IMG/VR virus record: IMGVR_UViG_3300046804_002650
Coordinates: 1 to 21,376 of that record
Direction: 5' to 3' (one strand)
DNA: 21,376 nucleotides
Source: a virus
Made by a program: the position numbers and the translations under genes. Shown here in pieces: positions 2,905 to 20,717 of the stretch. Under the pieces are notes generated by a model. It saw only the letters and a list, made by a program, of their open reading frames with translations. It did no database searches and was not told the origin of the DNA. Position 1 is the first letter of the stretch. Every line of letters starts with the position of its first letter.

Positions 2905-2919
2905 ACATTAAATAGTAAC

Positions 2920-3246: not shown

Positions 3247-3252
3247 TAAATA
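3245..3252 (+). promoter_or_regulatory. Candidate T4-like late promoter
   Basis: The sequence AATAAATA matches the NATAAATA late-promoter motif known from T4-like cyanophages. It begins at the stop codon of iscA and ends 22 bases before the start of the structural protein gene at 3275, a typical short-leader distance. Expression of a virion gene from a late promoter fits. Confidence 0.5.
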
Positions 3253-3274
3253 TACAGATAACGGAGTACAGAAT

Positions 3275-4165: not shown

Positions 4166-4491
4166 ACGGGATAGATCAAGCATTAGAGTTTGCCAACTAT
4201 CAAGCTACTCTGTCTCAACAGCGTAAGTTGATACGACAGAGATTCGAAGACAAATGTGTAGTTGCCTTTGCTGGGGGACTTTTTAAAGTCACGCCCGAAT
4301 TTATCGCAGGAACTGCCTTTCTTACAGATACATGGGTTATTGACTCTAACGGTAATCCTATCAATGTAGGGCCGATAAAACCATTTATTGATCTGTGTAC
4401 TAAAACATATAATGACGCACTGATTGATTATGGGTTAGCCTACGATCAAATTAAAAAGCAACGTTCCGTAAGTTCATTGGTGGGTGTATGA
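4150..4491 (+). CDS. Conserved small phage protein of unknown function, 113 aa
   Basis: The chosen start (MEFKLNG) overlaps the structural gene by 16 bases. An in-frame ATG at 4096 would overlap it by 70. The protein has an N-terminal helical segment, a central beta stretch (VVAFAGGLFKVTPEFIA, then TWVIDSNGNPINVG) and a C-terminal helix ending in a lysine/arginine-rich turn. It resembles small proteins of unknown function that I recall in T4-like phages of cyanobacteria and other aquatic hosts, but I cannot name the family. The end is joined by an ATGA overlap to the first glycosyltransferase-like gene. Possibly a structural or assembly partner of the preceding protein. Confidence 0.65.
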   Translation: MEFKLNGIDQALEFANYQATLSQQRKLIRQRFEDKCVVAFAGGLFKVTPEFIAGTAFLTDTWVIDSNGNPINVGPIKPFIDLCTKTYNDALIDYGLAYDQIKKQRSVSSLVGV

Positions 4492-5282
4492 CCCGAGGTG
4501 TACTATTGTTTGCTCATGATAACGAGCAGATACAATATGGTCTCTTCGCTGTATGGCAAGCATTGAGAATACACAAGTGGCTTAACAAACCTGTTAGCCT
4601 GGTTGCTGACCAAAAGACTATTGATAGACTGGGCGCACACAAAGATGTATTCGATAATATCTTTGTATCCGAACAACTAGCTACACAGAAAAAGAACTAT
4701 AGCGGACATGAGCTAACGTTTAATAACATAGATAGAGCAAGTGCTTGGGATATTACTCCTTATAACGAAACACTTGTAATAGATACTGACATTGCTATCC
4801 AATCAAATATACTTAATAATGTATGGAACAACAACGCAGACTTGCTGTTCTGTAAAACATCTACAGATGCCTTTGGTAGAGCACTACAGGGATTTGATAA
4901 ACTGTCCATGACGGGTATAGATTTTATATGGGCAACGGAGTTCTATTTTAAAAAGAACGAAACAACTAAAGTATTCTTTAATTTGTGTAATCTAATTAAA
5001 GATCAATATAACTGGTATTCACACGTATACGGCGTGCCGAGAGGATATATTAGAAACGACTATGTTTGGTCTATAGCCCTACATCAATTAAAAGGCGACT
5101 GGTGCTTGCCTATGCCGCATAACTTGTATTTTACAATAGATAAGGACAACATTGTTAGCATGACAGATACCAGTGTAGTAATGTTAGGCGATCAGAAATT
5201 AGTAAATGTTGAAGGATCAGACCTCCATATTATGAATAAGTTTGATTTAATAGCGCACGTTAAGAAAGAACTAAATGACTAA
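4488..5282 (+). CDS. Glycosyltransferase-like protein with DTD motif
   Basis: A 264-aa protein with a nucleotide-sugar-binding GT-A look. An N-terminal beta strand (GVLLFAHDN) is followed by a helix with YGLFAVWQALRIHKW, and a metal/nucleotide-binding DTD lies at residues 99-101 in TLVIDTDIAIQSN. This is the arrangement of GT8-type and related glycosyltransferases. Conserved WATEFYFKK and NDYVWSIALHQL blocks lie further on. No signal peptide or membrane segment is visible. It starts in an ATGA overlap with the preceding gene and overlaps the next, related gene by 8 bases. Donor and acceptor sugars are not predictable. Confidence 0.7.
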   Translation: MTRGVLLFAHDNEQIQYGLFAVWQALRIHKWLNKPVSLVADQKTIDRLGAHKDVFDNIFVSEQLATQKKNYSGHELTFNNIDRASAWDITPYNETLVIDTDIAIQSNILNNVWNNNADLLFCKTSTDAFGRALQGFDKLSMTGIDFIWATEFYFKKNETTKVFFNLCNLIKDQYNWYSHVYGVPRGYIRNDYVWSIALHQLKGDWCLPMPHNLYFTIDKDNIVSMTDTSVVMLGDQKLVNVEGSDLHIMNKFDLIAHVKKELND

Positions 5283-6000
5283 AGGATACGTTATATTTGC
5301 CCAAGGCAATTATCTTCCAATGGCAGAACTGTTAGCTAAAAGTATTAAGGCAACACAGTCAATAGTCAACGATGTACACATCATTACGGAAACCACAGGC
5401 GAAGTAATGTTAAATCGAACACAGATCTATAATCTAAGTCCGTTTGACGAAACTGTTATGCTTGATGCTGATATGTTATTCTTAGAAGATGTTAGTCATT
5501 GGTGGGATCACCTAGCTAAGTTTCCGTTAGTAATAACAAACAAGGTTCGCACCTACAGAGACGAGTTAGTTATTAATAGTCCTTACAGAAAAACATTTAG
5601 AGCAAACGATTTACCAGACTGTTATTGTGCGTTTACTTACTTTAAGAAAGATCCACAGGCAGACCTATTCTTTAACTTGCTAACACACATTGTAAGCAAC
5701 TGGGACGAGTGGACTAACAGATATACACCCGAACATAGACAGTCTTGGCCTAGTATAGATGTAGCAATGGCCATTGCTGTGAAAGTTCTAGGAATAGATC
5801 CCTTTAGCCCGTTAGACTATCCTACATTCACACACATGAAATCAGGATGCCAGAGATGGACACACTATTCAGAAAGGTGGCGCGATCACCTAGGATGTTA
5901 TGTAACAGATGGTAAACTACAGCTAGGTAGTTATACACAGGGCGGCATATTACATTACGTAGATAAAGAACTATACAATGACCTATTGTGTTTATTTTAA
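5275..6000 (+). CDS. Glycosyltransferase-like protein with DAD motif, relative of the preceding gene
   Basis: A 241-aa protein with the same layout as its upstream neighbour: an N-terminal strand (GYVIFAQGN), a helix with PMAELLAKSIKAT, and a DAD motif at residues 64-66 in ETVMLDADMLFL. Later blocks (CYCAFTYFKKDPQADLFFNLL and SIDVAMAIAVKVLG, described here in part) parallel those of the 4488 protein, so the two probably arose by duplication and divergence. Both likely act on sugars in the cytoplasm. The 8-base overlap implies coupled translation. Confidence 0.7.
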   Translation: MTKGYVIFAQGNYLPMAELLAKSIKATQSIVNDVHIITETTGEVMLNRTQIYNLSPFDETVMLDADMLFLEDVSHWWDHLAKFPLVITNKVRTYRDELVINSPYRKTFRANDLPDCYCAFTYFKKDPQADLFFNLLTHIVSNWDEWTNRYTPEHRQSWPSIDVAMAIAVKVLGIDPFSPLDYPTFTHMKSGCQRWTHYSERWRDHLGCYVTDGKLQLGSYTQGGILHYVDKELYNDLLCLF

Positions 6001-6490
6001 AGCCACCGGTGCTCTTCAAAGTATTATTGATCGTCCTCCCACATCTGATGAGTTAGGTTACATCAAAATATCTAACGAACAAACAGAGCTATTCCTAACA
6101 GGAACTGTTCGAATGGCAGATTACAGAGTTGTACCAGATACGGGTAAACTTGTCAGTTACAAACAGATATCAGTTACAAGATATGTAGCAGATGATATTA
6201 TATTTGCTGTTCCAAAAGACTTGTCAAAAGCAGACTTTATCATAACACAAAATATACAGGACAAGACCTGTACTGCTAGAATAGGCCAACACGGTAAATT
6301 AGTAGATGGTATAGTGGGTATCACTATAGCGGCATGTAAACCAAATGTGCCTTATTCTCCTTTATGGATTTGGGATATAAAGTTTAGCGATTTACTTGAC
6401 AATGATGTTAAAATAAACTATACAGGTACTGACAATATAATGTTCTATACCAAAAAGAATTTTAATACATATTCCCATGAAACAATTTAA
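5978..6490 (+). CDS. Hypothetical protein, 170 aa
   Basis: Not recognised. The N-terminus (MTYCVYFKATGALQSI, then a proline-containing loop and ELGYIKISNEQ) resembles short phage proteins that begin with a beta hairpin around a glycine turn, which often belong to virion or tail-associated families. The C-terminal two thirds alternate short strands, for example GIVGITIAACK and PLWIWDIKF. It overlaps the upstream gene by 23 bases and the downstream gene by 14, so it is clearly embedded in the operon. A structural or glycan-binding role is possible but unproven. Confidence 0.6.
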   Translation: MTYCVYFKATGALQSIIDRPPTSDELGYIKISNEQTELFLTGTVRMADYRVVPDTGKLVSYKQISVTRYVADDIIFAVPKDLSKADFIITQNIQDKTCTARIGQHGKLVDGIVGITIAACKPNVPYSPLWIWDIKFSDLLDNDVKINYTGTDNIMFYTKKNFNTYSHETI

Positions 6491-8210
6491 TCTAGCCGAA
6501 ATAGATTGTATTTTTATAAGTTATGATGAACCGAACGCAGAACATAACTATGCCGATCTATTGAACAAAGCGCCATGGGTTAAACGTGTACACGGAGTTA
6601 AAGGTAGCGATGCTGCACATAAGGCAGCAGCCAACCTAAGCGAAACAGAACGTTTTATTACAGTGGACGCAGACAACATTGTTGATCCAAAGTTTTTTAG
6701 CTTAACAATTAACGAAACAGGTAAACAACTGTCTTGGTGCGGAAATAACAATATCAATGGACTTATGTACGGCAACGGTGGATTAAAATGCTGGACTAAA
6801 GAATATGTCCTTAACATGAAAACACACGAAGCCGCAGACAGCGATACTTCTCAAGTAGACTTTTGTTGGTCTCCTGATTATCAGCAAATGAGCGAGTCTT
6901 ACTCTACAAGCCATATAAATGCCAGTCCCCTACAGGCATTTAGAGCAGGATTTCGCGAAGGCGTAAAGATGACTTTAGATAACGGAGTCAGACAGAAATT
7001 AACTAATCCCAAAGCTCAATTAGTAAAACAAAACTATCAGCGATTGCTAATTTGGCAAAATATAGGTTTAGACGTTGAGCAAGGAGCATGGGCTATATAT
7101 GGAGCTCGCCTCGGCTGTTACATGACAAACTGTACAGACTGGGACTACACACAAGTTAGAGACTTCGAGTATCTGAACAAATTATTTGAAGAGAAGTTTA
7201 ATCTAGACCCCCGTGAGCAAATAGATATACTAGGACAACTATTAAAACAAAAACTGAATTTGCCAGTAAGTGTTTATGATCCTGAACAGAGTAAGTTTTT
7301 TAAAGAAGTTTGGAATAATGTTCCAAGAGTGTTAAGCAAACCTTCTTCTACAACTCCTATATTCAATAAAGATTTGCCAGAAGTGTTTGACGAGCTTAGT
7401 TATACACTTCAACCAGAAGATATAGGCTACGAGTTAGCATGGTATGTAGATCGTAAGTTTTTCAACGGTCCGGATATTCGTCTATGGACAATTAACACAG
7501 GAGACAAGGGTGTTAAGAGGATGGGATATATTACTCCAAAGCTGTCGACAGTATTAGATGTTGTGTTTATTTCATATGACGAACCAAACGCAGACGAGAA
7601 CTGGGAGCAACTTAAAAAAGTATGTTCGAGAGCTGTTAGAGTACACGGAGTTAAAGGAATATACAACGCACACAAGGAAGCGGCAAGTATTGTCAAGTCT
7701 GATATGTTCTATGTAGTAGACGGTGATGCCTGGGTTACGGACTTCGACTTTAGCTACACTCCGGATATATTCAATCGCAAGTATGTTCACATCTTTAAAT
7801 CGTCCAATCCTATAAATGGTTTAGAGTACGGTAACGGTGCTATTAAAATATTGCCCAAACATTCGTTCAACTCAGCTCCCGGCATAGATGTAACTACTTC
7901 TTTGGGACAAACAAAACTTATCGATCGTGTTGTTTGCGAAACAAGATTTAATACCAGCCCATTTAATACGTGGCGGGCAGGTTTCCGCGAAGGTGTTAAG
8001 TTAGCATCCGGAATCATTAACAATCAAGTTGATAAAGAAACAAGCGATCGTTTGAAAGTATGGATTAACATAGGTCGAGATAAAGAGTATGGCACCTATG
8101 CTATGGAAGGTGCTAAGATGGGAGAAATTTACGCACACTCGAAACAAGACCTAAATAACATTAACGACTATAACTGGCTGTTAAACAGATATAAAGACCA
8201 CTACGAATGA
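6477..8210 (+). CDS. Two-module glycosyltransferase-like protein
   Basis: A 577-aa protein built from two copies of the same module. Module 1 (about 13-241) and module 2 (about 364-577) share, in the same order, FISYDEPNA (13-21 and 364-372), RVHGVKG, an acidic motif DAD (64-66) or DGD (415-417), ING-xx-YGNG (93 and 446 onward), RAGFREGVK (156-164 and 500-508), and a final NIG-D-E-G block. A linker of about 120 aa separates them. The acidic motif after a hydrophobic strand suggests a GT-A type nucleotide-sugar-binding fold, though the family is not one I can name. Both acidic motifs are kept, so both halves may be active. It overlaps the previous gene by 14 bases and the next by ATGA. Confidence 0.65.
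   Translation: MKQFNLAEIDCIFISYDEPNAEHNYADLLNKAPWVKRVHGVKGSDAAHKAAANLSETERFITVDADNIVDPKFFSLTINETGKQLSWCGNNNINGLMYGNGGLKCWTKEYVLNMKTHEAADSDTSQVDFCWSPDYQQMSESYSTSHINASPLQAFRAGFREGVKMTLDNGVRQKLTNPKAQLVKQNYQRLLIWQNIGLDVEQGAWAIYGARLGCYMTNCTDWDYTQVRDFEYLNKLFEEKFNLDPREQIDILGQLLKQKLNLPVSVYDPEQSKFFKEVWNNVPRVLSKPSSTTPIFNKDLPEVFDELSYTLQPEDIGYELAWYVDRKFFNGPDIRLWTINTGDKGVKRMGYITPKLSTVLDVVFISYDEPNADENWEQLKKVCSRAVRVHGVKGIYNAHKEAASIVKSDMFYVVDGDAWVTDFDFSYTPDIFNRKYVHIFKSSNPINGLEYGNGAIKILPKHSFNSAPGIDVTTSLGQTKLIDRVVCETRFNTSPFNTWRAGFREGVKLASGIINNQVDKETSDRLKVWINIGRDKEYGTYAMEGAKMGEIYAHSKQDLNNINDYNWLLNRYKDHYE
6513..8207 (+). repeat. Internal tandem module duplication within one protein
   Basis: Copy 1 spans 6513-7199 and copy 2 spans 7566-8207. 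The similarity is clear at protein level (same motifs in the same order) and weaker at DNA level, so the duplication is old rather than recent. Confidence 0.8.
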
Positions 8211-9436
8211 CAAAACATCTCTGCGTATTACCTTGGATACACTTAAATTTAGAACCGTCTGGTGTTGTACAACCGTGTTGTATGATGACGGATCAAAATT
8301 ATATTGCTGGTGATCTTAATAAACAAACTATTGAAGAGATTTGGAATGGGGAGCCGTTAAAGAAACTTCGTAAAGAAATGATCAACGGAGAAAACCCCAA
8401 GGCCTGTACAAAGTGCTACAATGCCGAAGTGGCTACTGGTATTAGCAATAGGATACACAATAATAAAAACTTTAATTCTAAGTTAGCTGAGATTCCTGTC
8501 ATTACTGAAGAAGACGGTACCTGTAATAAAATTGATTTACGCTATTGGGACTTTAGATTTAGTAACATCTGTAATTACAAATGTAGGTCTTGCGGGCCAC
8601 GCTTTAGTTCTACATGGGTACCAGATGCGCTAAAACTAGGATACATAAAAGAAGATTCCGAGTACAGTAAAAAGGTTTTAGAAATTAAAGAAATTGACAG
8701 CGGTACTAAATTAGACTTCTTAGAAAGATATGCCAACGCCGTAGAGATAATTTATTTTGCTGGCGGTGAGCCACTGATTATGGATGAGCATTATAAGATA
8801 TTAGACATACTGGTTGCTAAGAATCGATATGATGTTACATTAAAGTACAACACCAACTTGTCTACATTTACTCATAAAAAATACAATGTATTAGACTACT
8901 GGGATAAATGGAAAACTAATTTACAGTTATGGCCTAGTATCGATGAAATCGGACCACGTGCTGAACTAATCCGTAGTGGAACACGCTGGGATAATGTTGA
9001 ACAAAATCTAATTACACTCGTTAATGGAAAATATAATATTCGACCGGGCATTACCGTAGGAGCGTGGAATGTATTTCGATTGCCAGAAATAATACAGCAC
9101 CTAACTGATATAGGAGTTATTGTTCCTAAACATAAGAATTTTTATTTCAATATGTTGATCAACCCTGCTCATTATCACTTGTCAATATTAAGCGATCAAC
9201 ACAAATTAGATACTACTAGAAAACTAACTAGATTTGTAGAAGAGTATAATTCAAAATATAATACTGATATTACTCAGGAATTTGCTTATGTATTTTCAGA
9301 GCTATCAAAACCTACAAATCCATTAATGGCTAGAAAGTTTGTATTTGTAAGTAAACAAGTTGATAATGTTAGAGACGAAAACATTTATGATGTTATTCCG
9401 GAACTAGGATATATTCGTGATACATTCGATAGATAA
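8207..9436 (+). CDS. Radical SAM protein with N-terminal twitch-like cysteine domain
   Basis: A 409-aa radical SAM enzyme. The N-terminal domain carries cysteines at 6, 24, 25, 67 and 70 (LCVLPWIHL, PCCM, ACTKC), like the SPASM/twitch auxiliary-cluster domains, placed here before the core. This order is that of the twitch-domain radical SAM proteins seen in phages and bacteria. The core follows with CNYKCRSC (C122, C126, C129), which binds the 4Fe-4S cluster, and AGGEP (185-189), which binds SAM. Such enzymes start radical chemistry with 5'-deoxyadenosyl. The substrate is unknown, though related proteins often sit next to glycosyltransferases. It is joined to the previous gene by ATGA and followed by a methyltransferase-like gene overlapping it by 20 bases. 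Confidence 0.88.
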   Translation: MTKHLCVLPWIHLNLEPSGVVQPCCMMTDQNYIAGDLNKQTIEEIWNGEPLKKLRKEMINGENPKACTKCYNAEVATGISNRIHNNKNFNSKLAEIPVITEEDGTCNKIDLRYWDFRFSNICNYKCRSCGPRFSSTWVPDALKLGYIKEDSEYSKKVLEIKEIDSGTKLDFLERYANAVEIIYFAGGEPLIMDEHYKILDILVAKNRYDVTLKYNTNLSTFTHKKYNVLDYWDKWKTNLQLWPSIDEIGPRAELIRSGTRWDNVEQNLITLVNGKYNIRPGITVGAWNVFRLPEIIQHLTDIGVIVPKHKNFYFNMLINPAHYHLSILSDQHKLDTTRKLTRFVEEYNSKYNTDITQEFAYVFSELSKPTNPLMARKFVFVSKQVDNVRDENIYDVIPELGYIRDTFDR

Positions 9437-9968
9437 AGACGCTTTTAGTAGCGGACAAATTGGCAGTAAGATTTGGCTCTGTGAAGAATTAGAAAACACA
9501 GGGTGGAATTCTAGCCTAACCTATATCTACGGTGGATGGTACGGCGTTACTGCGTTCCTGCTATTCAGCAGAGGAAAGTTTCAAGTTGACCAAATACAGA
9601 GTTTTGATATTGATCCTAGTTGCGAAGCTGTTGCTGATATGATCAACGAAAACTGGGTCTGGCAAGATTGGAAGTTTAAAGCATACACACTAGATTGTAA
9701 TAGTTATGTAAGGGGAGGCCCAGACTTAATCATTAATACAAGCACAGAGCATTTTGAAAGCATGGAATGGTTTGAAAACATTCCGGCCGGTACACGCCTT
9801 GTACTACAGGGCAACAATATGCTACATGACGATCATCATAGAATTACACAGAATATTGTAGACTTTATAGAACAGTACCCAATGTCCAAATATGTCTACA
9901 CCGGACAAAAAGAGTTTACATACCCTGATTGGAAGTTTACTCGATTTATGACAATAGGAATAAAATGA
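9417..9968 (+). CDS. Methyltransferase-like protein (class I SAM fold), GTG start
   Basis: A 183-aa protein whose order of motifs suggests a small Rossmann-fold methyltransferase: YIYGGWYG (36-43) as a variant glycine-rich motif I, then QSFDIDPSCEAV (61-72) as the acidic second strand that would hold the SAM ribose, and a later LIINTSTEHF strand. The start codon is GTG, with GGA about 8 bases upstream, and the gene overlaps the radical SAM gene by 20 bases. No ATG start is available near the N-terminus. The end overlaps the next start as ATGA. The glycine motif is divergent, so substrate and even activity are uncertain. Confidence 0.6.
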   Translation: MIHSIDKDAFSSGQIGSKIWLCEELENTGWNSSLTYIYGGWYGVTAFLLFSRGKFQVDQIQSFDIDPSCEAVADMINENWVWQDWKFKAYTLDCNSYVRGGPDLIINTSTEHFESMEWFENIPAGTRLVLQGNNMLHDDHHRITQNIVDFIEQYPMSKYVYTGQKEFTYPDWKFTRFMTIGIK

Positions 9969-10663
9969 CAAAAGTACCTCCAGGCATTAGCGGCCGTCCA
10001 ATAAAGTTTGATGCTAGCAATGTATCACACGAAACCTTAGTATGCGAAACGGCATTGTTATCGTTAGGCGACTTTGAGCCACTAGACTATAAGATAGATG
10101 TAAATGCGTTTTCTAAAGACATCTCTCCTTTTAATAACGACTGGGTTGATTACTTGCCTCGAACAGATCGTCCTAACAATCGCAAAGGACTATCCCTAAT
10201 GAATTACCCAGGATGGACACACACTGATTGTCCTAGCATGCCAGAAGCATATATAAAATTAGACAAGGTGCCGAGGGAGATAGAGTTTGATACTCCAACA
10301 ACCTTATACAAAGCCTGTACTAGTCTACAGCCGTTTTTAGATGACTGGCAACCGTTAGGACGCACATTCTTAGTTAAGAGCGATATTGGAGGATACTTTG
10401 TTCCACACAGAGATCATCCTAGCATGCCTAGAGAAACATTTAGACTTATCGCGTTCCTAAACAACTGCGGGCCAACAGACTACGATTGGTTAATGGATGA
10501 CAGAAAGATTCAAATAGAGCCTGGGCGAGTTTACTATGTTAATACACGTAAGACACATAGAACTATCAGTTGGGTGAATGACAGCATACACTTAATACTT
10601 AACGTACCGTTTACTTCTAGCAATGTGTCTAAGGTGCTAGCACATCTATTACATAGGCATTAA
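9965..10663 (+). CDS. 2OG-Fe(II) oxygenase, aspartyl/asparaginyl hydroxylase-like
   Basis: A 232-aa protein, taking the ATG at 9965, which overlaps the upstream stop as ATGA. An in-frame ATG 36 bases earlier is less likely. The iron-binding triad is visible: H148 and D150 in YFVPHRDHP, and H198 in THRTISW, with basic residues nearby that could hold 2-oxoglutarate. The layout (HxD about 50 residues before the last histidine, and a conserved RLIAFLNNC strand between) fits the aspartyl/asparaginyl beta-hydroxylase type of cupin oxygenase. It would hydroxylate a protein side chain or a small molecule, using O2 and 2-oxoglutarate. It is the last gene of the long rightward operon and its stop overlaps the convergent oxygenase gene. 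Confidence 0.75.
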   Translation: MTKVPPGISGRPIKFDASNVSHETLVCETALLSLGDFEPLDYKIDVNAFSKDISPFNNDWVDYLPRTDRPNNRKGLSLMNYPGWTHTDCPSMPEAYIKLDKVPREIEFDTPTTLYKACTSLQPFLDDWQPLGRTFLVKSDIGGYFVPHRDHPSMPRETFRLIAFLNNCGPTDYDWLMDDRKIQIEPGRVYYVNTRKTHRTISWVNDSIHLILNVPFTSSNVSKVLAHLLHRH

Positions 10664-11187
10664 GCTATAACTAGATGTATCCGGTCTTCTGCGCCGGCGT
10701 TATAAACAAAGTGTGGAATAGTTGTATCAACTCGATAGAAGTGTCTGTCGGCAGGTATATGATAGCAATGGGCCAATTCCTCTTTACCTTCTACACCAAA
10801 AGCAAAGAATGCTGTAGGATTGGTTTTTAATACTAGATGATATCTAACTGTTTCGTCAATGTGTAAACTTAAACCTGTTTTAGGCAACAGTCTCATATAA
10901 CGCACACGACCACATTTAAATCCTTCTGCTTGTTCTAACTCATTAACTAATTGTCGAGTATAAGAATCAACGTTCCATACATTAAAGTCATGTTCGTATG
11001 CTATACGTTTCATTTTAACTCTATCGAACAAACTACCAGCGGCATCTTTCCAAACATCAGTAGCACTTTCTCTGCGAGTAAGTCCAATTTGATTATGAGG
11101 AATCCAGCTGGCTTGCTCTAAAACTTTGTCAAGGTCAAATTGAACCTTTTCTAAATTTGCAGACGTTGATAGTTTTTTGATAAACAT
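10660..11187 (-). CDS. 2OG-Fe(II) oxygenase-like protein
   Basis: A 175-aa relative of the aspartyl/asparaginyl hydroxylase group. The metal ligands are H109 and D111 in LSLHIDETV and H159 in TIPHFVYN, and R169 in EDRIHLV is the likely 2-oxoglutarate anchor. The gene faces the other oxygenase, and their stop codons overlap by 4 bases. The start is only 5 bases from the start of the divergent radical SAM gene at 11193. No Shine-Dalgarno sequence is visible. It is shorter than the 9965 protein and not closely similar outside the active-site strands, so it is probably a separate acquisition and not a recent duplicate. Confidence 0.75.
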   Translation of the reverse strand: MFIKKLSTSANLEKVQFDLDKVLEQASWIPHNQIGLTRRESATDVWKDAAGSLFDRVKMKRIAYEHDFNVWNVDSYTRQLVNELEQAEGFKCGRVRYMRLLPKTGLSLHIDETVRYHLVLKTNPTAFFAFGVEGKEELAHCYHIPADRHFYRVDTTIPHFVYNAGAEDRIHLVIA

Positions 11188-11192
11188 ATAAT

Positions 11193-12761: not shown

Positions 12762-12765
12762 ACAG

Positions 12766-13476: not shown

Positions 13477-13726
13477 TTATGATTGTGTCTTTCTCTTGTC
13501 GGATTAAATCTAGATAGTTGTTTTTATTGGCAAAATGTAAGTCTGGCTTTGACATCCAAGAGTCAGAATGTATCTCAACTCCCGAATCAAACGTAATCTT
13601 TATGGTATATCCTAAGTCCGGAGCAGTCCATTGCGTAACAGTTTGTGTAATCATAAAGGTAGGAACCTGTTTATCAAATACAGGTACATTATCTTTAAAC
13701 ACTTCTAACCTAAAAAAGTTTTTCAT
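13439..13726 (-). CDS. Hypothetical protein, 95 aa
   Basis: Not recognised. The start at 13726 gives MKNFFRLEVFKD and overlaps the upstream stop as ATGA. An in-frame ATG three codons earlier is less attractive. The first 60 residues look like a beta-rich module (FRLEVFKDNVPVFDK, TFMITQTVTQW, YTIKITFDSG), and the last 30 look like a helix followed by a Thr/Pro tail. It sits between two probably paralogous genes and overlaps the second by 38 bases. It may form a complex with them. Confidence 0.6.
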   Translation of the reverse strand: MKNFFRLEVFKDNVPVFDKQVPTFMITQTVTQWTAPDLGYTIKITFDSGVEIHSDSWMSKPDLHFANKNNYLDLIRQEKDTIINEIGTTSQTPPQ

Positions 13727-14487
13727 AGTGCCCACTTCTCCTTTGCTAACGCAATAACATCGTCAATGTTTGGATTATCAATTATCGGGTTAGCGTTATA
13801 CATTGACTTTAACACATTGTACTTCTTTAAGTTGATTAGTTTTAAAGATGCTATTCCACAAGACATTGCTTCATCATAGGTCTGAGTGTACATTCCAGGA
13901 ACCCTAAAATAGTATCCTCTTTCGTTCCTCCAACGAATAGCGCCACAGAATACTTGCTGAGTCATTCCTTCTCCGTATCGCTGTGTAACCTTGTATATGG
14001 TCTTAGCAACTTTCTCTGTCTGTAAGATAAGTGTTTCTAAAAACTGAGGATTTGTAGAATCTGATAAAAAGTCTTGCCATGGATCATTTCCAAAAGTTCC
14101 CCAGGGCGGCATTGTTATATCAAAAGACCAGTCGACTCCGTCAATGTTTACAATTTCGTGATGTACAGGTACTTCGAAGTTGAAGTCTTCATATAATATT
14201 CCTTCAACATATACTTCACGAAGTATGTTCCAGTCATTAGGGCCAAATACATTGTTTATAGAGTAGAATCTGTTATCCTTGCCATATAAAATAACTTCTA
14301 CAGAAGTTCTTTCGTATTTTTTATTAATGTGTAATAATCCTAGATCAGTCTCTTCCCAAATATGGTGCCACCCTTCTCCGTATTTCTTGTTAGGTGGCGG
14401 GCATCCGTAAAACTCATTTTTACGGTCTTCTGTCCAGTAGTTTAACTTTTCAATAAGAAAGTCTAGTTTATCTTGATATTCTGACAT
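13723..14487 (-). CDS. Hypothetical protein, 254 aa
   Basis: Not recognised. The protein begins with a helical MSEYQDKLDFLIEKLNYW stretch, then a tryptophan- and tyrosine-rich central part (EGWHHIWEETD, GVDWSFDITMPPWG), a helical block and an RYGEGMTQQVFCGA segment, and ends in KEKWAL. The layout resembles the 236-aa protein encoded at 12766. The start has a good Shine-Dalgarno (GAGGGA, about 7 bases away) and lies 19 bases downstream of a late-promoter match on the same strand, so the gene may be the first of a sub-operon that also contains the small unknown, the paralog and the QueC-like protein. Confidence 0.7.
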   Translation of the reverse strand: MSEYQDKLDFLIEKLNYWTEDRKNEFYGCPPPNKKYGEGWHHIWEETDLGLLHINKKYERTSVEVILYGKDNRFYSINNVFGPNDWNILREVYVEGILYEDFNFEVPVHHEIVNIDGVDWSFDITMPPWGTFGNDPWQDFLSDSTNPQFLETLILQTEKVAKTIYKVTQRYGEGMTQQVFCGAIRWRNERGYYFRVPGMYTQTYDEAMSCGIASLKLINLKKYNVLKSMYNANPIIDNPNIDDVIALAKEKWAL

Positions 14488-14506
14488 GTCGGTCCCTCGT
14501 ATCTTC

Positions 14507-14514
14507 TATTTATT
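14507..14514 (-). promoter_or_regulatory. Candidate T4-like late promoter, leftward
   Basis: The minus strand reads AATAAATA, matching NATAAATA. It lies 19 bases before the ATG at 14487, which also has a strong Shine-Dalgarno, and it overlaps the stop of the upstream GT8-like gene. It would allow the unknown/QueC-like block to be transcribed separately. Confidence 0.45.
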
Positions 14515-15175
14515 GTAAAAAGTACTGAGATATTTCTAGCTCTCTGTTCCATTCGTTGTCGCTGTCAGTTGAAACAAAACACGGAGCTCCTAGCGTATAA
14601 TGTAACAACTTTGCCTTATCGTTTTTTGGATATTCTCCAACTAACCAGTTCCACTCTTTTGAGATACTTCCAATATCCAATTCGTCTAGCCATTGAAACT
14701 GATGTAGGTATTCTCCGCTATGCTTTGCTACTGAGTCGGGTGTTAACTGTTTATTTTTGTCGTGTCTGCAGTTGATTAACATAACACTACTCCAATTCTT
14801 CTTTGGGTAATTAGAATTTGAGTTGTTGAGAAACTTGGTATGTGTTTTAGTAGTGTAGTCGTGCTTCGCACACATAACGGCATACTGATTATCTGCTAAC
14901 TTCCAAAGTTCTGATATGTCAGATAGCGCAAGAACATCACAGTCTACATATATTGCCCACCCGCTGTAGTTCATAAGATAAGGAACTAAAAATCTAGTAT
15001 AACTGCTAGTGTTACTAGAATCAGTGTGTGTTTCTGTATACCCGGGTATGTTTGCTAAGTTCAGCGGCGTAATCGAAAGAGGTTGGCTAGATAATCTAGT
15101 CAAGCTACTAACAGCCACATGAAAACATACAGACTCTTTAGGGTCGTAACCTACAAATATTGGGATCATATTCAT
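14510..15175 (-). CDS. GT8-like glycosyltransferase
   Basis: A 221-aa protein from the ATG at 15175, with AGG about 7-9 bases upstream. The longer frame from 15211 adds a hydrophobic stretch but no better start signal. The opening MIPIFVGYDPKESVCFHV is typical of bacterial GT8-type proteins. A DCD motif at 78-80 in WAIYVDCDVLALSDI is the metal and nucleotide-sugar site, followed by SSVMLINCRHD and a late KLLHYTLGAP, where GT8 enzymes carry a conserved histidine near the end. It probably transfers a sugar from a nucleotide donor. It is the first gene of a leftward unit that diverges from the radical SAM gene at 15231. Confidence 0.78.
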   Translation of the reverse strand: MNMIPIFVGYDPKESVCFHVAVSSLTRLSSQPLSITPLNLANIPGYTETHTDSSNTSSYTRFLVPYLMNYSGWAIYVDCDVLALSDISELWKLADNQYAVMCAKHDYTTKTHTKFLNNSNSNYPKKNWSSVMLINCRHDKNKQLTPDSVAKHSGEYLHQFQWLDELDIGSISKEWNWLVGEYPKNDKAKLLHYTLGAPCFVSTDSDNEWNRELEISQYFLQ

Positions 15176-15199
15176 AATTATGCCTAGCAGATACGCTAC

Positions 15200-15207
15200 T
15201 ATAAATA
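15200..15207 (+). promoter_or_regulatory. T4-like late promoter (full match TATAAATA)
   Basis: The sequence TATAAATA is an exact match to the T4 late-promoter consensus. It lies in the 55-base divergent intergenic region, 23 bases before the ATG at 15231 of the radical SAM gene, and is the clearest promoter-like site in the window. It supports assignment to a T4-like phage. Confidence 0.65.
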
Positions 15208-15230
15208 TCATTATATACGCACATTATGAG

Positions 15231-16229
15231 ATGATTACCAACATTAAAAATATAAGCGGAGTCACACACCTCACATGGATCATTAACAATATATGTACTA
15301 AGAGCTGTGACTACTGCCCTACTAATTTACATAGAGGTAAAAATCATCATTACGATTGGACACACGCCAAAAGTTTCATAAAAGAAATATTCAAGAGATA
15401 CGAGAAACTTCACGTAACTATATCGGGCGGTGAACCAACAGTAAGTCCGTTCTTAATCGATGTGGTAAAAGAGTTTTATAACAACGGACATACAATTGGT
15501 ATTACAAGCAATGCCGCACGAACTAAAGACTACTACAAAGAACTGTGTCCAATGTTAAGCTACATAGGATTAAGTTGGCATCCCAGTGACCCAGATCCTG
15601 AATTTATAGAAAAGGCGTTAACTGCTTCCGATCACTGCTTTACCCTAGTTAGAGTTATGATGGATGCCAGACACTGGGACGAATGTATTTCTTTTTTAGA
15701 TAGGCTAAAACAAATTAAAGAATTAGCTTGGGAACCAGTAATGATAACTCCCTGGCATACTGAGGAAAGAGGAATAGCGCCGTGTGCCTATACAGAAGAA
15801 CAACTCGAATGGTTTAAGACAGCTCCATTTAAACGAGCAGATGAATTCTTTAAATCTAAAAGATACCCGTTACTATCAAAGCAACCTTTAGTAAGTTTTG
15901 CCTACAATGAAAAAGGAAAACGAATAAAGAACTTTTACCCAAACGAACTTATAAACAAGCGACAAAATGTGTTTACTGGGTGGACTTGTTATCCAGGATT
16001 AGAAAGTCTCTTTGTCCAATATACAGGACAGATAAGTTCAGCTAACTGTGGTCAGAATCGTAATTTAGGAACAATACAAGATATAGATAATATTAAATGG
16101 ATTACTGATCCTGTGACCTGTACACAACCTAGTTGCGAATGTACTTCGGATATACTATTAACCAAATACAGATATGCCCCGATAGTAACAACAAAACAAA
16201 AATTTTTAAATTGGATTAAGAAACTATGA
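15231..16229 (+). CDS. Radical SAM protein with C-terminal auxiliary-cluster domain (copy 2)
   Basis: A 332-aa radical SAM enzyme from the ATG at 15231, which lies just downstream of the TATAAATA site. A longer frame from 15180 would start upstream of that promoter. The core cysteines are C22, C26 and C29 in CTKSCDYC, and SGGEPT is at 65-70. C-terminal cysteines at 253, 273, 297, 302 and 304 have exactly the same spacing as in the 11193 protein, and the context (GW-C--GLE--FV---G-I---C) is shared. These are therefore paralogs with a twitch/SPASM-like auxiliary domain. It overlaps the epimerase gene by ATGA, so its product may act on a nucleotide sugar or glycan made with that enzyme. Confidence 0.87.
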   Translation: MITNIKNISGVTHLTWIINNICTKSCDYCPTNLHRGKNHHYDWTHAKSFIKEIFKRYEKLHVTISGGEPTVSPFLIDVVKEFYNNGHTIGITSNAARTKDYYKELCPMLSYIGLSWHPSDPDPEFIEKALTASDHCFTLVRVMMDARHWDECISFLDRLKQIKELAWEPVMITPWHTEERGIAPCAYTEEQLEWFKTAPFKRADEFFKSKRYPLLSKQPLVSFAYNEKGKRIKNFYPNELINKRQNVFTGWTCYPGLESLFVQYTGQISSANCGQNRNLGTIQDIDNIKWITDPVTCTQPSCECTSDILLTKYRYAPIVTTKQKFLNWIKKL

Positions 16230-17155
16230 AAATCTTCATTACAGGGTCTGATGGATTCATTGGATCGCATATGGTAAAAACACTAACCTCTCAAGGACAT
16301 TCTTTAACACCGTTAACTTGTGACCTGAGAGATCACGCTGGCGTAGAACAACAACTACGAGATGCTTCTCCAGATTTAATTGTACATCTAGCCGCTAGAA
16401 CAGAAGTAGAAAAAAGCTTCTACGAACAAACAACCTTTAGTGATATCAATTACACAGGGACAGTTAATCTAATTGAATCAGCGGCTAGACTATCTCATAA
16501 ACCGCATTTTGTATTTGCCAGCACAATGGAAGTATACGGATGGCAACCTGAAAGCGATTTAATTAGAGACGGAAAGCCATTTACATTGCCTGTGTTCGAT
16601 GAACATACTGTTCCACATCCTAATGCTCCGTATGCTGTTGCCAAGTACGGATGTGAAAAATATCTAGAGTATGCTAGTAGATCACTAGGCATTACATATA
16701 CAATTATTAGACAAACAAATGCCTATGGACGCAAGGATAATACATTCTTTGTCACTGAACGTATTATTAGTCAGATGCTAGGAGATGCTCACACCTGTAA
16801 ATTAGGATATGCTACTCCTTACAGAAACTTTATCTATATCGACGATCTGCTATCTGCTTGGGAAACAGTTATTAATAATCCAGACAAATGTAGAAATCAA
16901 TTGTATACCTTAGGGCCGGCTAATGCTATTCAGATCAAAGAATATGCTGAATGGATTGCTTCTCTATTAGATTGGGACGGTACTATCGAATGGAACACAC
17001 AACCTCATAGACCCGGTGAGATATATGTTTTAAACAGCAACCATAACTTATTAACAGAACACACAGGTTGGATGCCTAAGGTTACTTTAGAACAGGGGCT
17101 AATGCTAACTATTGATCATTGGAAGTCTCAGATAGTAAGATACCATCCTTGCTAA
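16226..17155 (+). CDS. NAD-dependent nucleotide-sugar epimerase/dehydratase (extended SDR)
   Basis: A 309-aa protein with full-length extended-SDR features: the cofactor loop GSDGFIG (7-13), HLAA (54-57), catalytic S99 in FASTMEVYG, and Y136 and K140 in the YAVAK motif, followed by a RQTNAYGRKD block and the C-terminal HRPGE substrate region. Such enzymes epimerise or dehydrate UDP-, dTDP- or GDP-sugars in the cytoplasm. The exact sugar is not predictable, although the layout is closest to UDP-glucose 4-epimerase and GDP-sugar dehydratase groups. It overlaps the radical SAM gene by ATGA. The 3' end overlaps a convergent glycosyltransferase-like gene by 47 bases. Confidence 0.88.
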   Translation: MKIFITGSDGFIGSHMVKTLTSQGHSLTPLTCDLRDHAGVEQQLRDASPDLIVHLAARTEVEKSFYEQTTFSDINYTGTVNLIESAARLSHKPHFVFASTMEVYGWQPESDLIRDGKPFTLPVFDEHTVPHPNAPYAVAKYGCEKYLEYASRSLGITYTIIRQTNAYGRKDNTFFVTERIISQMLGDAHTCKLGYATPYRNFIYIDDLLSAWETVINNPDKCRNQLYTLGPANAIQIKEYAEWIASLLDWDGTIEWNTQPHRPGEIYVLNSNHNLLTEHTGWMPKVTLEQGLMLTIDHWKSQIVRYHPC

Positions 17156-17792
17156 GTCTTCCTCTGTGGTGTATAAAGAACTTCTTTAATGGACTGCGTT
17201 GAAATGCTTCACCGCTTTGATAAGGAAGTTCAGATAAGTTCTTACTGGGTATTTTTAGTTCTTTAAAGACTTCTTCCCATACCCAAGCATCTTGCCACAT
17301 ATACATATCTTTTACTTTACCAGATAGATATGCGTCTTGCAAGGCCAACATAAACTCTCGTGTTCTAGGATGTTTCATGTTGTATGCCATCCATCCTGTT
17401 TCTGAATAGAAGTCGTCCCCTCTACCTAAATGAGAAACTACCTGATGTTCTTCAGGCATTACCGCCAACAACTCTTCGCTTGTAATTCCGTGTATCTGTG
17501 TAACATCAGTGTCTAACCATATAACATAATCTGCTGTTGATTGTAGGCAATGATTAACTAATGCTTCTATCTTATGAGAATACTTACAACAGGCTCTTAA
17601 AAAACTAGTGCCCTCGTCTGGCCATGTACGGGCTTCTGCTCTCATACGCTCCCAAGCTTCTGTACTGTCTTGCGGTTCCCAATACATTTTAACAAATGGA
17701 TACCATTGCCATGTCGGAATACTACGGCAAGCATACCTATCCCAAATTTCTTGATTCAGTCCTGTTATAATTTCTAAGTTGTTAATGTCCAT
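17109..17792 (-). CDS. Glycosyltransferase-like protein with DTD motif
   Basis: A 227-aa protein. The DTD motif at 94-96 in DYVIWLDTDVTQI follows a hydrophobic strand, as in GT-A fold glycosyltransferases. The block SHLGRGDDFYSETGWMAYN further on, with a large acidic/tryptophan-rich WQDAWVWEEV segment, suggests an acceptor-binding part, and HHRGR lies near the end. It differs from the GT-like proteins at 4488, 5275 and 14510. The last 47 bases overlap the end of the epimerase gene, so the two are antisense there. It starts 24 bases from the divergent gene at 17817, across an inverted repeat. Confidence 0.68.
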   Translation of the reverse strand: MDINNLEIITGLNQEIWDRYACRSIPTWQWYPFVKMYWEPQDSTEAWERMRAEARTWPDEGTSFLRACCKYSHKIEALVNHCLQSTADYVIWLDTDVTQIHGITSEELLAVMPEEHQVVSHLGRGDDFYSETGWMAYNMKHPRTREFMLALQDAYLSGKVKDMYMWQDAWVWEEVFKELKIPSKNLSELPYQSGEAFQRSPLKKFFIHHRGRLSKDGILLSETSNDQ

Positions 17793-17794
17793 GA

Positions 17795-17813
17795 GATATT
17801 TACTGTAAATATC
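17795..17813. promoter_or_regulatory. Inverted repeat in a 24-base divergent spacer, possible two-way promoter
   Basis: A perfect inverted repeat: arms GATATTTA and TAAATATC around CTG. Each strand therefore carries TAAATA, giving TGTAAATA on plus and AGTAAATA on minus, which differ from the late-promoter motif by two bases or fewer in the conserved part. It fills nearly all of the space between start codons at 17792 and 17817. It may be a symmetric late promoter or a binding site for a dimeric regulator. Confidence 0.45.
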
Positions 17814-17816
17814 ACC

Positions 17817-18347
17817 ATGTCCTATAAAATTGTTCCCTGGAGTAAAGATTTAGATCTCAGTGAGTTTTATCAAACCGCTAAGGAAAAAGGATTTCTAAAT
17901 AACTCAACTGAAGAATTACTTGTCGATTCTTTTAGGAACGAGCGCGAATGGAATGTGTGGATTTTGTATTACAATGACAAAGCTGTTGGAAGTATGGCTG
18001 CTCATAGCTTTGATGATGTAATGGGTCCAAACAGTTATAGGGTAGCTGTTAGAACCTGTGTGTTTACTGATAAGATTGAAGCTACTGGTCTAAAGACTCT
18101 ACAGACAATGCTCGATTATACTAAAGGAGAGCACCCTGTTGGTTATTTGTTCAAGGCATGTGTCGATTGGGTTCCAAAAGGATCTAGAATATTTACAACT
18201 ACAGTTACGAGCAACACTACAGGAAAACAAGACAAAGCACACACGGTTACTTCAGCATTGTCTAGGTTTAAAACATTTAAGAAGATGGGCGATATACATT
18301 ACCGACACACTGATCAAACACTTTGGGAAATATTATTAGACCATTGA
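17817..18347 (+). CDS. Acyltransferase-like protein (GNAT-type, tentative)
   Basis: A 176-aa protein. A strand VWILYYNDKAVGSMAAHSF followed by YRVAVRTCVF recalls the beta4-beta5 region of GNAT N-acetyltransferases, where the enzyme backbone meets acetyl-CoA, but the R/Q-x-x-G-x-G/A loop is not clear. It is a relative of the protein at 20756: both share a strand with K-x-V-x-S, an R-x-CV segment, a phenylalanine- and glycine-rich end and a final W residue. Each lies alone on the plus strand at the end of a leftward unit. Possible roles include acylation of an amino sugar made by the neighbouring enzymes. The 3' end overlaps the nucleotidyltransferase gene by 34 bases. Confidence 0.5.
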   Translation: MSYKIVPWSKDLDLSEFYQTAKEKGFLNNSTEELLVDSFRNEREWNVWILYYNDKAVGSMAAHSFDDVMGPNSYRVAVRTCVFTDKIEATGLKTLQTMLDYTKGEHPVGYLFKACVDWVPKGSRIFTTTVTSNTTGKQDKAHTVTSALSRFKTFKKMGDIHYRHTDQTLWEILLDH

Positions 18348-18748
18348 GCAAGTAAGTTGCTACTGCTAACTGTTTTATTTCCACCTACTCCAAATTTAAA
18401 AATTACATCATGAACTGCCAGTTCTGGAATATTTTTAGCAGTTCTATCTCCGCCATTAGCAAAGATGATAGTGTCTTTTGGAAATAAACTTTTTACATTT
18501 TTAATTGCTTCAATAGCACTTCCGTCGTTATCGTTAAACAGTATAACACCATCCACCATTCTTAAGTTTTCAATAATTTGTACTCGCTCATGGATTGGCA
18601 TAAAAGGACGGCCTTTTTTACGTTCGAGCCAAGCATCGCTATTAACACCGACAATAAGTTTATCACCTAACTCTTTTGCCGCGTTAAAATACGCAATATG
18701 TCCGCTATGTATAGGATCAAAGCCGCCTGTTACCAATACTACATTCAT
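18314..18748 (-). CDS. Nucleotidyltransferase of the cytidylyltransferase family
   Basis: A 144-aa protein. The GGFDPIHSGH motif (8-17, with the HxGH nucleotide-binding signature at 14-17) is typical of the small cytidylyltransferase family, which includes glycerol-3-phosphate cytidylyltransferase and the C-terminal half of HldE (RfaE). The block VGVNSDAWLERKKG and the GGDR segment also fit. The usual ISSTxI-type motif is VSSSN here, a moderate change. It would join CMP or AMP to a sugar or polyol phosphate, giving an activated precursor. It overlaps the upstream oxygenase gene by ATGA and is the last gene of that leftward unit. The product fits a sugar-activation step for the glycosyltransferases. 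Confidence 0.82.
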   Translation of the reverse strand: MNVVLVTGGFDPIHSGHIAYFNAAKELGDKLIVGVNSDAWLERKKGRPFMPIHERVQIIENLRMVDGVILFNDNDGSAIEAIKNVKSLFPKDTIIFANGGDRTAKNIPELAVHDVIFKFGVGGNKTVSSSNLLAQWSNNISQSV

Positions 18749-19218
18749 AGCTTGTAAGGAATCCTTTCTACTAGAGATTCGTATGTTTCATCTACAATAG
18801 AAATTCTAAATAGGATTCTTTCTTTATCTCCATTCTTTACTTCATGCGGCACTTGAGGATTTAATAGTGCTGTTGTATAGTAATAATCAACTCCGCCAAA
18901 TGTAACTGGAGCAAGGTCGTCTGATAGTAAAAAATTAACAGATACTAGTGTTTCATAATCAACATGCTCTGTTAAATGTGTATAGGGCTTTACCCAGCCG
19001 ACTTTAGGATAACAGGTGCCGCGTAATTCTAAGTCTTTTATGATTTGATTAACGTATTCATTATCTCTAATCTCGACTACTGATACATAATCTTTTAGAT
19101 ATCCAAATTCATCCTTAGGAGGAACATAATCTCCACCGGTAGCGTTTCTTAAGTCGTTGGCAATTTTTAATATGCGCTCTTTGTCAATCTTATAAGAAAG
19201 GTGAGTGATTGGAGTCAT
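18745..19218 (-). CDS. 2OG-Fe(II) oxygenase-like protein, 157 aa
   Basis: The metal ligands are H85 and D87 in LTEHVDYET and H125 in QVPHEVKNG, with R134 or R138 as the likely 2-oxoglutarate anchor. A double-stranded beta-helix layout is suggested by LVSVNFLLSDDL and ILFRISIVDE. The protein is compact, close to the minimum for the fold. It is translated between the radical SAM gene (ATGA overlap upstream) and the nucleotidyltransferase gene (ATGA overlap downstream), so the three probably act in one pathway. This is the third such oxygenase in the window and is not obviously a duplicate of the other two. Confidence 0.7.
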   Translation of the reverse strand: MTPITHLSYKIDKERILKIANDLRNATGGDYVPPKDEFGYLKDYVSVVEIRDNEYVNQIIKDLELRGTCYPKVGWVKPYTHLTEHVDYETLVSVNFLLSDDLAPVTFGGVDYYYTTALLNPQVPHEVKNGDKERILFRISIVDETYESLVERIPYKL

Positions 19219-20717
19219 TTTAATTTTTTCTCAACATAATCTTTAATCAATCTCAGAGATTTCTTTCTGTAATCGATTGTGTCAATCTGAGGATGGCATT
19301 GTCTTGTAATAGACAATACCTTTTCGTAATCCTGCTTGTACAATCCTAAGTATCGTATGGTAGAAAAACAATCTAGGAATTCTGTTTTCTTTTGAAACTC
19401 GGAAACTAAGTCTGTACATTCATAAATGTCAGTGTGTTCATTTTTCCAGAACACTTCGTTAATGGGACGAGTTACATTCTTTTCTCTGTTAATATCTCTA
19501 TCAACTTCTAGTATTTCAGAATACCCAAACTTAGACATATCTTCGCCAAAGGCAGCTATAATTCCTTTTTGTCTGTATATTGATAGCGGCCACCACATCC
19601 AGTGTTGATCAATCCAATTTTGCTGTAGCCATTTTTCTGTTTCTAGCATATCGCTAATAGGCTCGTGTGGTAAGCCGGCAATAAACCCTGCGGTGCCCCT
19701 ATACAAACCTACATGGGTATTCATGTAGTCCTTCATTTGTAGTAACAAGCCCTTCATTATGTCAGGATTCATTCCTTTACCAATTGATGTTCCTGCTCGT
19801 TTGTTAAACGTTTCAATGCCGTAGTAATGTACCCACGCTCTCGATTCTGCCAACAGTTCAAAATGTTCAGGGTGCGCTTTTAATAAGTCTAATCTAATAA
19901 AGGCTTTAAAGTCTGGTTTAAAATCTAGTCGCCTAACAACATTTCTAAGTTTAATTAATTTTTCAGTTCTGTCATTAAATGTGTCATCGGCAATAGTATA
20001 TACTGTAGTTCCCCACTTCTCGTAGTTCTCATTAAGTTCTCTATATAAACTTTCTTCACTAGCTGAAGAATCTTCTTTCATACCAATGAAGGGAAAACTA
20101 CAGAACTTACAAGCAAACTTACATCCTCTAGATAATTCGATAGTCATGTGATTATCTGGAGTAACATAATCGTTCTCGACAAATTTTACAGAGTAATCAT
20201 CTAGAGGAGTTGCTGGGTAAGCATGGTAGGCATCGATATGTCGACCGGTAAAAAACTCAGTGCTTGTGGGCATAGGTCCTGTGCTAAACTCATATTTTAG
20301 TACAGCATCTAACGCATATTCTCCGTAGCCAAATATATACCAGTCAGCTGACAGATCGTGATTGTACGGGAACTGCCCTCCTATGATTAATTTCAAATTT
20401 GGATACCATTCCTTGATGCTCTTAATCAAAGTAATAGCATCCTTGCTTTCAGAGATCCATGTATAGGATACACCTATCCATTTAGTAACTCCGTCTATAT
20501 ACCTAGTGTCGATAAACTGTTTTACTTGATCAACAGGCATCCAAAGCATGTAGTCCAATACTTCAATGTTCCACCCTTTCTCTCTCAAGTAGTGAGCTGT
20601 TCGATATGCTCCAGTTGATCGACTGTTTCGTAGTTCGTCGAACCCCGATAGGATTAAAGCATGACCCGTAGGGTATTCGACTGTCTGTTCAACTTGGTGT
20701 ATAGGTATGTGTTTCAT
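19215..20717 (-). CDS. B12-domain-like radical SAM protein
   Basis: A 500-aa protein. Residues about 15-140 form a Rossmann-like domain resembling the cobalamin-binding half of class B radical SAM enzymes (LILSGFDELR, TAHYLREKGWNIEVLDYM, KLIIGGQF, FGYGEYALDAVL), but the DxHxxG motif that ligates cobalamin is absent, so B12 binding is doubtful. The radical SAM core then follows, with C199, C203 and C206 in RGCKFACKFCSF. Downstream blocks (IADDTFNDR, HYYGIETFN, GFIAGLPHE) fit the family. A C-terminal extension of about 100 aa is unassigned. The first gene of its unit, it lies 38 bases from a divergent acyltransferase-like gene across an inverted repeat. Confidence 0.85.
   Translation of the reverse strand: MKHIPIHQVEQTVEYPTGHALILSGFDELRNSRSTGAYRTAHYLREKGWNIEVLDYMLWMPVDQVKQFIDTRYIDGVTKWIGVSYTWISESKDAITLIKSIKEWYPNLKLIIGGQFPYNHDLSADWYIFGYGEYALDAVLKYEFSTGPMPTSTEFFTGRHIDAYHAYPATPLDDYSVKFVENDYVTPDNHMTIELSRGCKFACKFCSFPFIGMKEDSSASEESLYRELNENYEKWGTTVYTIADDTFNDRTEKLIKLRNVVRRLDFKPDFKAFIRLDLLKAHPEHFELLAESRAWVHYYGIETFNKRAGTSIGKGMNPDIMKGLLLQMKDYMNTHVGLYRGTAGFIAGLPHEPISDMLETEKWLQQNWIDQHWMWWPLSIYRQKGIIAAFGEDMSKFGYSEILEVDRDINREKNVTRPINEVFWKNEHTDIYECTDLVSEFQKKTEFLDCFSTIRYLGLYKQDYEKVLSITRQCHPQIDTIDYRKKSLRLIKDYVEKKLK

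Follow-up and report, generated by a model that had tools for sequence, protein, structure and literature searches.

A tail-linked glycosyltransferase operon and a variable cassette zone in a putative T4-like phage contig, with a tentative role in tail-protein modification

The window examined here is the full record IMGVR_UViG_3300046804_002650, a viral contig of 21,376 bases, in which a sequence-only reading had gathered the enzyme genes downstream of a structural protein into one possible modification island. That set is two things, a conserved late-type operon and a variable cassette zone. The conserved core is a predicted single late-type operon made up of a tail-type gene (S), the small gene g8, two genes for GT8-like glycosyltransferases (GTa and GTb), g11, and the gene for a GT-A enzyme (GTc), and its order, as judged by protein comparison, is kept across dozens of diverse phages. 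The explanation ranked first, which is held tentatively, is that the island enzymes would carry out a late modification of a tail protein. All open reading frames lie where the earlier reading had placed them, and some starts were revised from relatives, namely those of S (3275), of a further GT8 gene (about 15169), and of rSAM3, a radical S-adenosylmethionine (SAM) enzyme (15231).

The conserved core operon

The core genes are packed on the plus strand. S (3275–4165, +), assigned from its relatives, opens the late-type operon and is followed by g8 (4150–4491, +), a small protein of unassigned function that nearly all relatives also have in this place, ahead of the first GT8 gene. GTa (4488–5282, +) carries a DTD motif at 99, and GTb (5275–6000, +) carries a DAD motif at 64 and matches phrog_1903 (7.6e-13). 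Both reach GT8 via a joint profile match (2e-8) to glycogenin, a GT8 enzyme, and not via Pfam itself. The conserved protein g11 (5978–6490, +), a putative virion protein, is encoded between GTb and GTc and is homologous to a longer family, F35, found in the same position in other phages (hhalign 97.5%, E 6e-12); its predicted structure has a pLDDT of 83.6 and a pTM of 0.56. GTc (6477–8210, +) contains two GT-A-type domains in tandem, with VD[AG]D motifs at 63 and 414 and a DxD that is invariant in its alignment (A4). It matches no family, and a sequence search of the PDB returned nothing convincing. The structure-based search that had been proposed for the glycosyltransferase-like proteins was run for GTc, by way of its relative in the related record IMGVR_UViG_3300010885_018307 (L001), in which the two halves of GTc are separate genes. 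The resulting model is confident (pLDDT 86.5) and shows a GT-A-type nucleotide-binding domain, with B4GALNT1 as the best fold match (Z 11.2 over 138 residues). Hence, of the five glycosyltransferase-like genes originally proposed, those at 4488, 5275, 6477, and 14510 stand by family, profile, or fold, and the one at 17109 keeps its motif only.

L001 shares with the window the Fe–S genes and the run from g8 to the GT8 gene, in the same order and at 35–83% identity, and diverges afterwards. Within the g8-to-GT8 run the two are collinear at 35–76% protein identity, and rSAM2 was not found in place in L001. Judged from these alignments, the order kept between the two records exceeds chance. Beyond this pair, a search based on rSAM1 recovered the arrangement S–g8–GT8–GT8–g11/F35–GTc followed by genes for N-terminal-twitch (N-twitch) radical-SAM enzymes in 38 loci. 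Because such a search includes a radical-SAM gene by construction, the scan was repeated with GTc alone, keeping the best 80 of the 598 relatives that were confirmed, a sample weighted towards sequences close to the query and containing some near-identical contigs, so that independent cases are fewer than 80. Two GT8-type genes precede GTc in all 63 contigs with a readable upstream side; therefore, homologs of the core do not occur independently of one another in these contigs. The three genes lie on one strand in 61 of the 63, with a median gap of −8 nt, i.e., an overlap. Downstream of GTc, 46 loci are readable, and N-twitch radical-SAM genes occur in 30 of them, the methyltransferase family in 17, rSAM2/3 in 15, and the QueC-like gene in 3. 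The co-occurrence expected by the sequence-only reading is thus found for the core, but does not extend to the epimerase, the nucleotidyltransferase, GTe, and OGc. No tblastn match to the core proteins was obtained in 50,697 phage records, and the phage records contain no close relatives of the DNA or of the rSAM2, GTc, GTa, F35, F0 radical-SAM, and S proteins.

The sequence WATAAATA is the T4-type late promoter box. It occurs only three times in the window, each time 27–31 nt ahead of a start: AATAAATA at 3245 is 30 nt ahead of the ATG of the tail-type gene, AATAAATA is 27 nt upstream of g21, and TATAAATA (15200–15207, +) precedes rSAM3, the distance here being taken from the homology-corrected start. 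The shuffled expectation for TATAAATA alone is 3.4, so the number of motifs is ordinary and their positions are unusual. Across the GTc loci, WATAAATA is found about 20–38 nt before 18 of 74 S genes and before 1 of 437 GTc, GT8, g11, and radical-SAM genes (Fisher 2e-15), with several candidate starts per gene allowed, alike for every class. This distribution fits a transcript that starts at the S promoter and covers the enzyme genes. The S family includes the L001 protein encoded at 1877–3529, which bears the PF21722 glycine-rich domain and tail PHROGs. Furthermore, in relatives the S family directly follows a Peptidase_G2 tail-fibre-like gene, and tail-fibre-like genes (Peptidase_G2, Gly-rich) lie just upstream. 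The structural protein of the earlier reading is thus probably of tail type, by its relatives and position, although S itself matches no family.

Possible targets of the island enzymes

The earlier reading had left the target between tail proteins and host surface glycans; the balance leans to the tail because of the adjacency of tail genes, the overlapping genes, and the late-type promoters. The front half of the island forms a run of overlapping genes from the tail-type gene through two GT8-like enzymes, g11, and the GT-A enzyme to an N-twitch radical-SAM enzyme (rSAM1; 8207–9436, +), a methyltransferase-like protein (MT; 9417–9968, +), and a 2-oxoglutarate (2OG) oxygenase (OGa; 9929–10663, +). 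The products of this operon would act late, during virion assembly. The glycosyltransferases would attach sugars, and residues of a tail protein, most likely S or g11, would be altered by the radical-SAM enzymes, the oxygenase, and the methyltransferase-like protein. Meanwhile, the downstream cassettes may supply or trim unusual groups that vary by phage, like host-recognition genes. This proposal builds on the directly observed gene order, packing, conservation of the glycosyltransferase core, and late-promoter-like motif, and on the families or folds found for most members.

Several points weigh against modification of the tail. The S protein of the window has no Pfam or PHROG match, its label as a tail protein comes from relatives and position, and the late-promoter motif is not seen ahead of 56 of the 74 S genes. 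The g11 model has no good fold match in the PDB, and its BFVD matches are uncharacterised phage proteins only. IscU is found in only 3 of 32 records with N-twitch enzymes, and a radical-SAM gene lies near IscU in only 10 of 79 IscU loci. GT8 enzymes are common in glycan and lipopolysaccharide synthesis, and islands of this kind have been interpreted as serving host O-chain modification (PMC7029224).

That published interpretation concerns the host recognition cluster (HRC) of pelagimyophages and cyanomyophages, which carries GT8, rfaE, and radical-SAM cassettes. The window appears to be a piece of a tail-fibre-linked variable island from a T4-like (gp23-type) aquatic phage. No gp23 lies on this 21 kb fragment, but related records have it, over its cut-off in 10 of 20 and in 6 of 18; the gp23 of one relative shares 71% identity with the gp23 of PA5oct-like Pseudomonas jumbo phages. 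With the described HRC (PMC7029224), of which it is a variant, the island has in common the large variable region beside tail-fibre genes, the GT8-type glycosyltransferases, the rfaE-like genes, and the radical-SAM cassettes. It differs in its fixed GT8–GT8–g11–GTc order, N-twitch arrays, and cassettes with QueC-like and 2OG enzymes. The described HRC is placed between VrlC and gp14, flanks that the window does not contain. As far as the literature examined shows, the coupling of a fixed glycosyltransferase core to N-twitch radical-SAM arrays, with late-type promoters ahead of them, goes beyond the published HRC description, and a literature search, which was incomplete, found no paper on a tail-linked radical-SAM array.

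Remodelling of glycans on the host surface, either the O-chain or the capsule, perhaps to block superinfection, is the second-ranked explanation, possible but rather doubtful, and would have the epimerase and nucleotidyltransferase activate a sugar, the glycosyltransferases add it, and the oxygenases and methyltransferase decorate it. The presence of GT8-like enzymes, an epimerase, and an HldE-like nucleotidyltransferase agrees with such a role, as do the HRC precedent and the radical-SAM cluster near PagP in Vibrio phage K566. However, no flippase, polymerase, or lipid-carrier gene is seen in the window, the late-type promoter and the overlap with the tail-type gene point elsewhere, and the bacterial neighbours of N-twitch genes are not rich in polysaccharide genes. 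Tail modification, taken from gene content and arrangement, would rank ahead of it.

A natural-product-type pathway is improbable. It would resemble the synthesis of ribosomally synthesised and post-translationally modified peptides (RiPPs), combining radical-SAM, B12 radical-SAM, beta-hydroxylase, and methyltransferase steps, with a product that is either released or coupled to the phage or the host. The closeness of the oxygenase OGb to Cpz10 of caprazamycin synthesis, the SPASM-type clusters, the B12 radical-SAM enzyme, and the AMP-binding enzyme at 91–1224 are in keeping with it. However, the core enzymes stay beside tail genes instead of forming a free cluster, and no precursor-peptide candidate was recognised, although the substrate could be a large protein. 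Lower still, and hard to credit, is the absence of any common function, in which a hypervariable region gathers unrelated metabolic genes: the epimerase, nucleotidyltransferase, GTe, OGc, and g26 are unlinked to the core and strand changes follow 10663, but the core order holds in 63 of 63 contigs and the pairing of OGa with the QueC-like gene is recurrent.

In a broader form of the tail-modification proposal, which goes further and is unlikely as a whole, widespread uncultured T4-like phages would use a late operon to glycosylate a tail protein (two GT8 enzymes and one GT-A enzyme), N-twitch arrays to cross-link or rewrite it, and phage-specific cassettes to complete a RiPP-like virion chemistry for host recognition or evasion. 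If the virion is the target, phages would vary their host-contact proteins by radical-SAM chemistry, past the limits of the genetic code, which would help to explain many "metabolic" genes in the tail-fibre islands of aquatic phages. If the host surface is the target, the island offers a sizeable collection of untested enzymes for glycan tailoring. Either way, a long-standing question about auxiliary metabolic genes becomes testable through the conserved core and the cluster in Vibrio phage K566.

Radical-SAM enzymes and Fe–S genes

The "radical chemistry" of the earlier reading, which it had not itemised, resolves into four radical-SAM enzymes. The score of rSAM1 (344.9 bits) is twice the NF033640 (N_Twi_rSAM) cut-off of 170, and its CX3CX2C motif and N-terminal cysteines are invariant. 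Further downstream are rSAM2 (11193–12146, +; PF04055 8e-12), with CX3CX2C and additional conserved C-terminal cysteines, and rSAM3 (15231–16229, +; PF04055 2.2e-10), a paralog of rSAM2 whose start was set from the related locus L163. rSAM4 (19215–20717, −; PF04055 and PF02310) is of the B12-binding type; the PhpK subfamily is nearest, at a score far under its cut-off, and a scan of viral contigs for rSAM4 gave no pattern match. Viperin, the 3′-deoxy-3′,4′-didehydronucleotide (ddhNTP) synthase, was considered for rSAM2 and rSAM3 and rejected: they score 47.7 and 40.3, respectively, against an NF038283 cut-off of 180 and possess extra conserved C-terminal cysteines, and their matches arise from the radical-SAM core common to both families.

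N-twitch genes form arrays in related phages. One locus (L269) has eight head to tail after GTc, and three records (G009, G005, and G008) have 14, 13, and 13 matches over the NF033640 cut-off, respectively, as counted by hand; no match passes the cut-off in the 14 bacterial and archaeal genomes used as controls. The cellular relatives come chiefly from Flavobacteriales, Saprospiraceae, Bdellovibrionota-type, and Elusimicrobia bins, and in rough gene calls their neighbours are scattered, with no clear theme and no dominance of polysaccharide genes. One Elusimicrobia metagenome bin (contigs CAIRTQ01, L201–L256 in part) holds about a dozen N-twitch loci. The cultured Vibrio phage K566 (L272, 161548–178915) carries about five clustered N-twitch radical-SAM genes, and another cultured isolate, Vibrio phage K567, also has genes of this type.

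Upstream of the core lie an IscU scaffold (1779–2156, −; TIGR01999 215.7 bits, past the cut-off of 192.4) and two A-type Fe–S carriers, IscA1 (1463–1786, −; PF01521 3.8e-21) and IscA2 (2920–3246, +; PF01521 5.5e-16), which, like the QueC-like ligase, add to the genes listed by the earlier reading. The radical-SAM enzymes probably receive their Fe–S clusters with assistance from IscU and the A-type carriers. IscU as an obligatory partner of the N-twitch array was dropped, given its presence in 3 of 32 records. An adjacent radical-SAM gene is seen in 9 of 79 IscU loci, and a B12-type gene of the rSAM4 family lies directly downstream of IscU in the phage contigs L095, L104, L106, L107, L108, L110, L113, and L114. 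The abundance of radical-SAM genes in T4-like phages is already known, since one T4-like environmental genome was reported with 12 of them together with Fe–S genes (Nishimura et al., PMC5332604). That genome set resembles the present records in having IscU or A-type carriers alongside many radical-SAM genes, but the portion of that report drawn on here describes neither the tail-linked order nor the N-twitch family. Next to the Fe–S genes, at the contig edge, a short AMP-binding (ANL-type) enzyme of 377 aa with few relatives is encoded at 91–1224 (−).

The variable cassette zone

Strand switches begin after 10663. The variable zone contains the methyltransferase, the oxygenases, the QueC-like ligase, the epimerase, and the nucleotidyltransferase. 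Its epimerase and nucleotidyltransferase, like GTe and OGc, are not linked to the core, and the island is therefore not one pathway; the earlier statement that no single known pathway explains all the genes agrees with this division into a fixed core and a variable zone. MT is a putative class I methyltransferase by its motifs; it matches no methyltransferase family, and its profile reaches only a Rossmann dehydrogenase (0.006). Of the three proposed 2OG oxygenases, OGa and OGb are sustained by profile or family, and OGc is left with its motif. OGa is hydroxylase-like, with a profile match to proline cis-4-hydroxylase (1.2e-5) and an invariant HRD at 160 and H210 (HxD...H). OGb (10660–11187, −) belongs to the Asp/Asn beta-hydroxylase family (PF05118 above cut-off) and resembles the caprazamycin beta-hydroxylase Cpz10 (PMC9814697) by a profile match of 8.6e-35, but lacks a surrounding nucleoside-antibiotic cluster. 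OGc (18745–19218, −) has no match and shows HVD at 85 and PH at 124 (HxD..PH).

Of 20 OGa groups, 11 also have the QueC-like gene, often next to OGa and in either orientation. MT, OGb, and a short relative of GTc turn up repeatedly in their vicinity, MT recurs with GTc or OGb, and the epimerase and nucleotidyltransferase appear occasionally. The QueC-like ATP-dependent ligase (12117–12794, −) scores 22.0 against the PF06508 cut-off of 22.0. It keeps SGGADS and CX7CX2CX2C, with a cysteine spacing of x7 against the canonical x8. Its closest solved relative is Cap9 (7e-7), of the protein-modifying Cap9/QatC QueC family (PMC13279940, PMC13329287), with which it shares SGGxDS and zinc-type cysteines; however, the Y/D motif for recognition of 7-carboxy-7-deazaguanine (CDG) was not found in the QueC-like alignment, and no partner protein with an N-terminal glycine, as used in Cap9-type protein deazaguanylation, was recognised. 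The canonical QueC motifs YxQxHxxE, VPxRN, and YPDC are absent from that 20-sequence alignment. Because these motifs are lacking and most records have no clear QueE match, the canonical preQ0/queuosine pathway was set aside and kept as a weak rival. The least probable of the explanations weighed is that a deazapurine is produced or conjugated by the QueC-like enzyme in concert with QueD- or FolE-type genes located outside the island: PF01242 (QueD-type) occurs in 6 of 11 QueC-like records and 3 of 24 controls (Fisher 0.015; a lead only), FolE occurs in two other QueC-like records, and Cap9 is the closest solved relative, but the canonical motifs are absent, a good QueE match is found in only 1 of 11 records (which are fragments), and neither QueD nor FolE is seen in the window. 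One phage record (L077, G048) has FolE and a good QueE match with the QueC-like gene only, no canonical QueC being seen.

A minus-strand run begins at g21 (13723–14487, −) and continues through g20 (13439–13735, −) and g19 (12766–13476, −) to the QueC-like gene; all three are of unassigned function. g19 and g21 are paralogs (blastp 4e-5) that enclose g20, and g19 also occurs in L001, as does g20, whose counterpart is 64% identical over 56 aa. Among the fetched loci, only the window and L001 have this group (12766–14487). The GT8-family glycosyltransferase (14510–15169, −), with its start set by homology, matches PF01501 (7.6e-8, 32.7 against a cut-off of 24.3).

Two sugar-enzyme assignments of the earlier reading hold well. 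The gene at 16226–17155 (+) encodes a NAD-dependent nucleotide-sugar epimerase/dehydratase (PF01370 2.4e-38) with GxxGxxG and YxxxK, and that at 18314–18748 (−) encodes a nucleotidyltransferase (PF01467 4.5e-16) nearest to HldE/RfaE domain II (rfaE_dom_II 80 bits, below the cut-off of 181.5). GTe (17109–17792, −) has no convincing family or profile match and is glycosyltransferase-like by its LDTD motif. g26 (17817–18347, +), which looks acetyltransferase-like by eye only, and g30 (20756–21340) are paralogs (blastp 6e-10) that match no family. In a simple hydropathy check for transmembrane segments, the GT8 enzyme, the QueC-like enzyme, and two others were weakly flagged, the GT8 stretch lying outside the corrected start. 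A palindrome, GATATTTACTGTAAATATC, lies at about 17793–17813 between the divergent GTe and g26, and both of its strands carry TAAATA.

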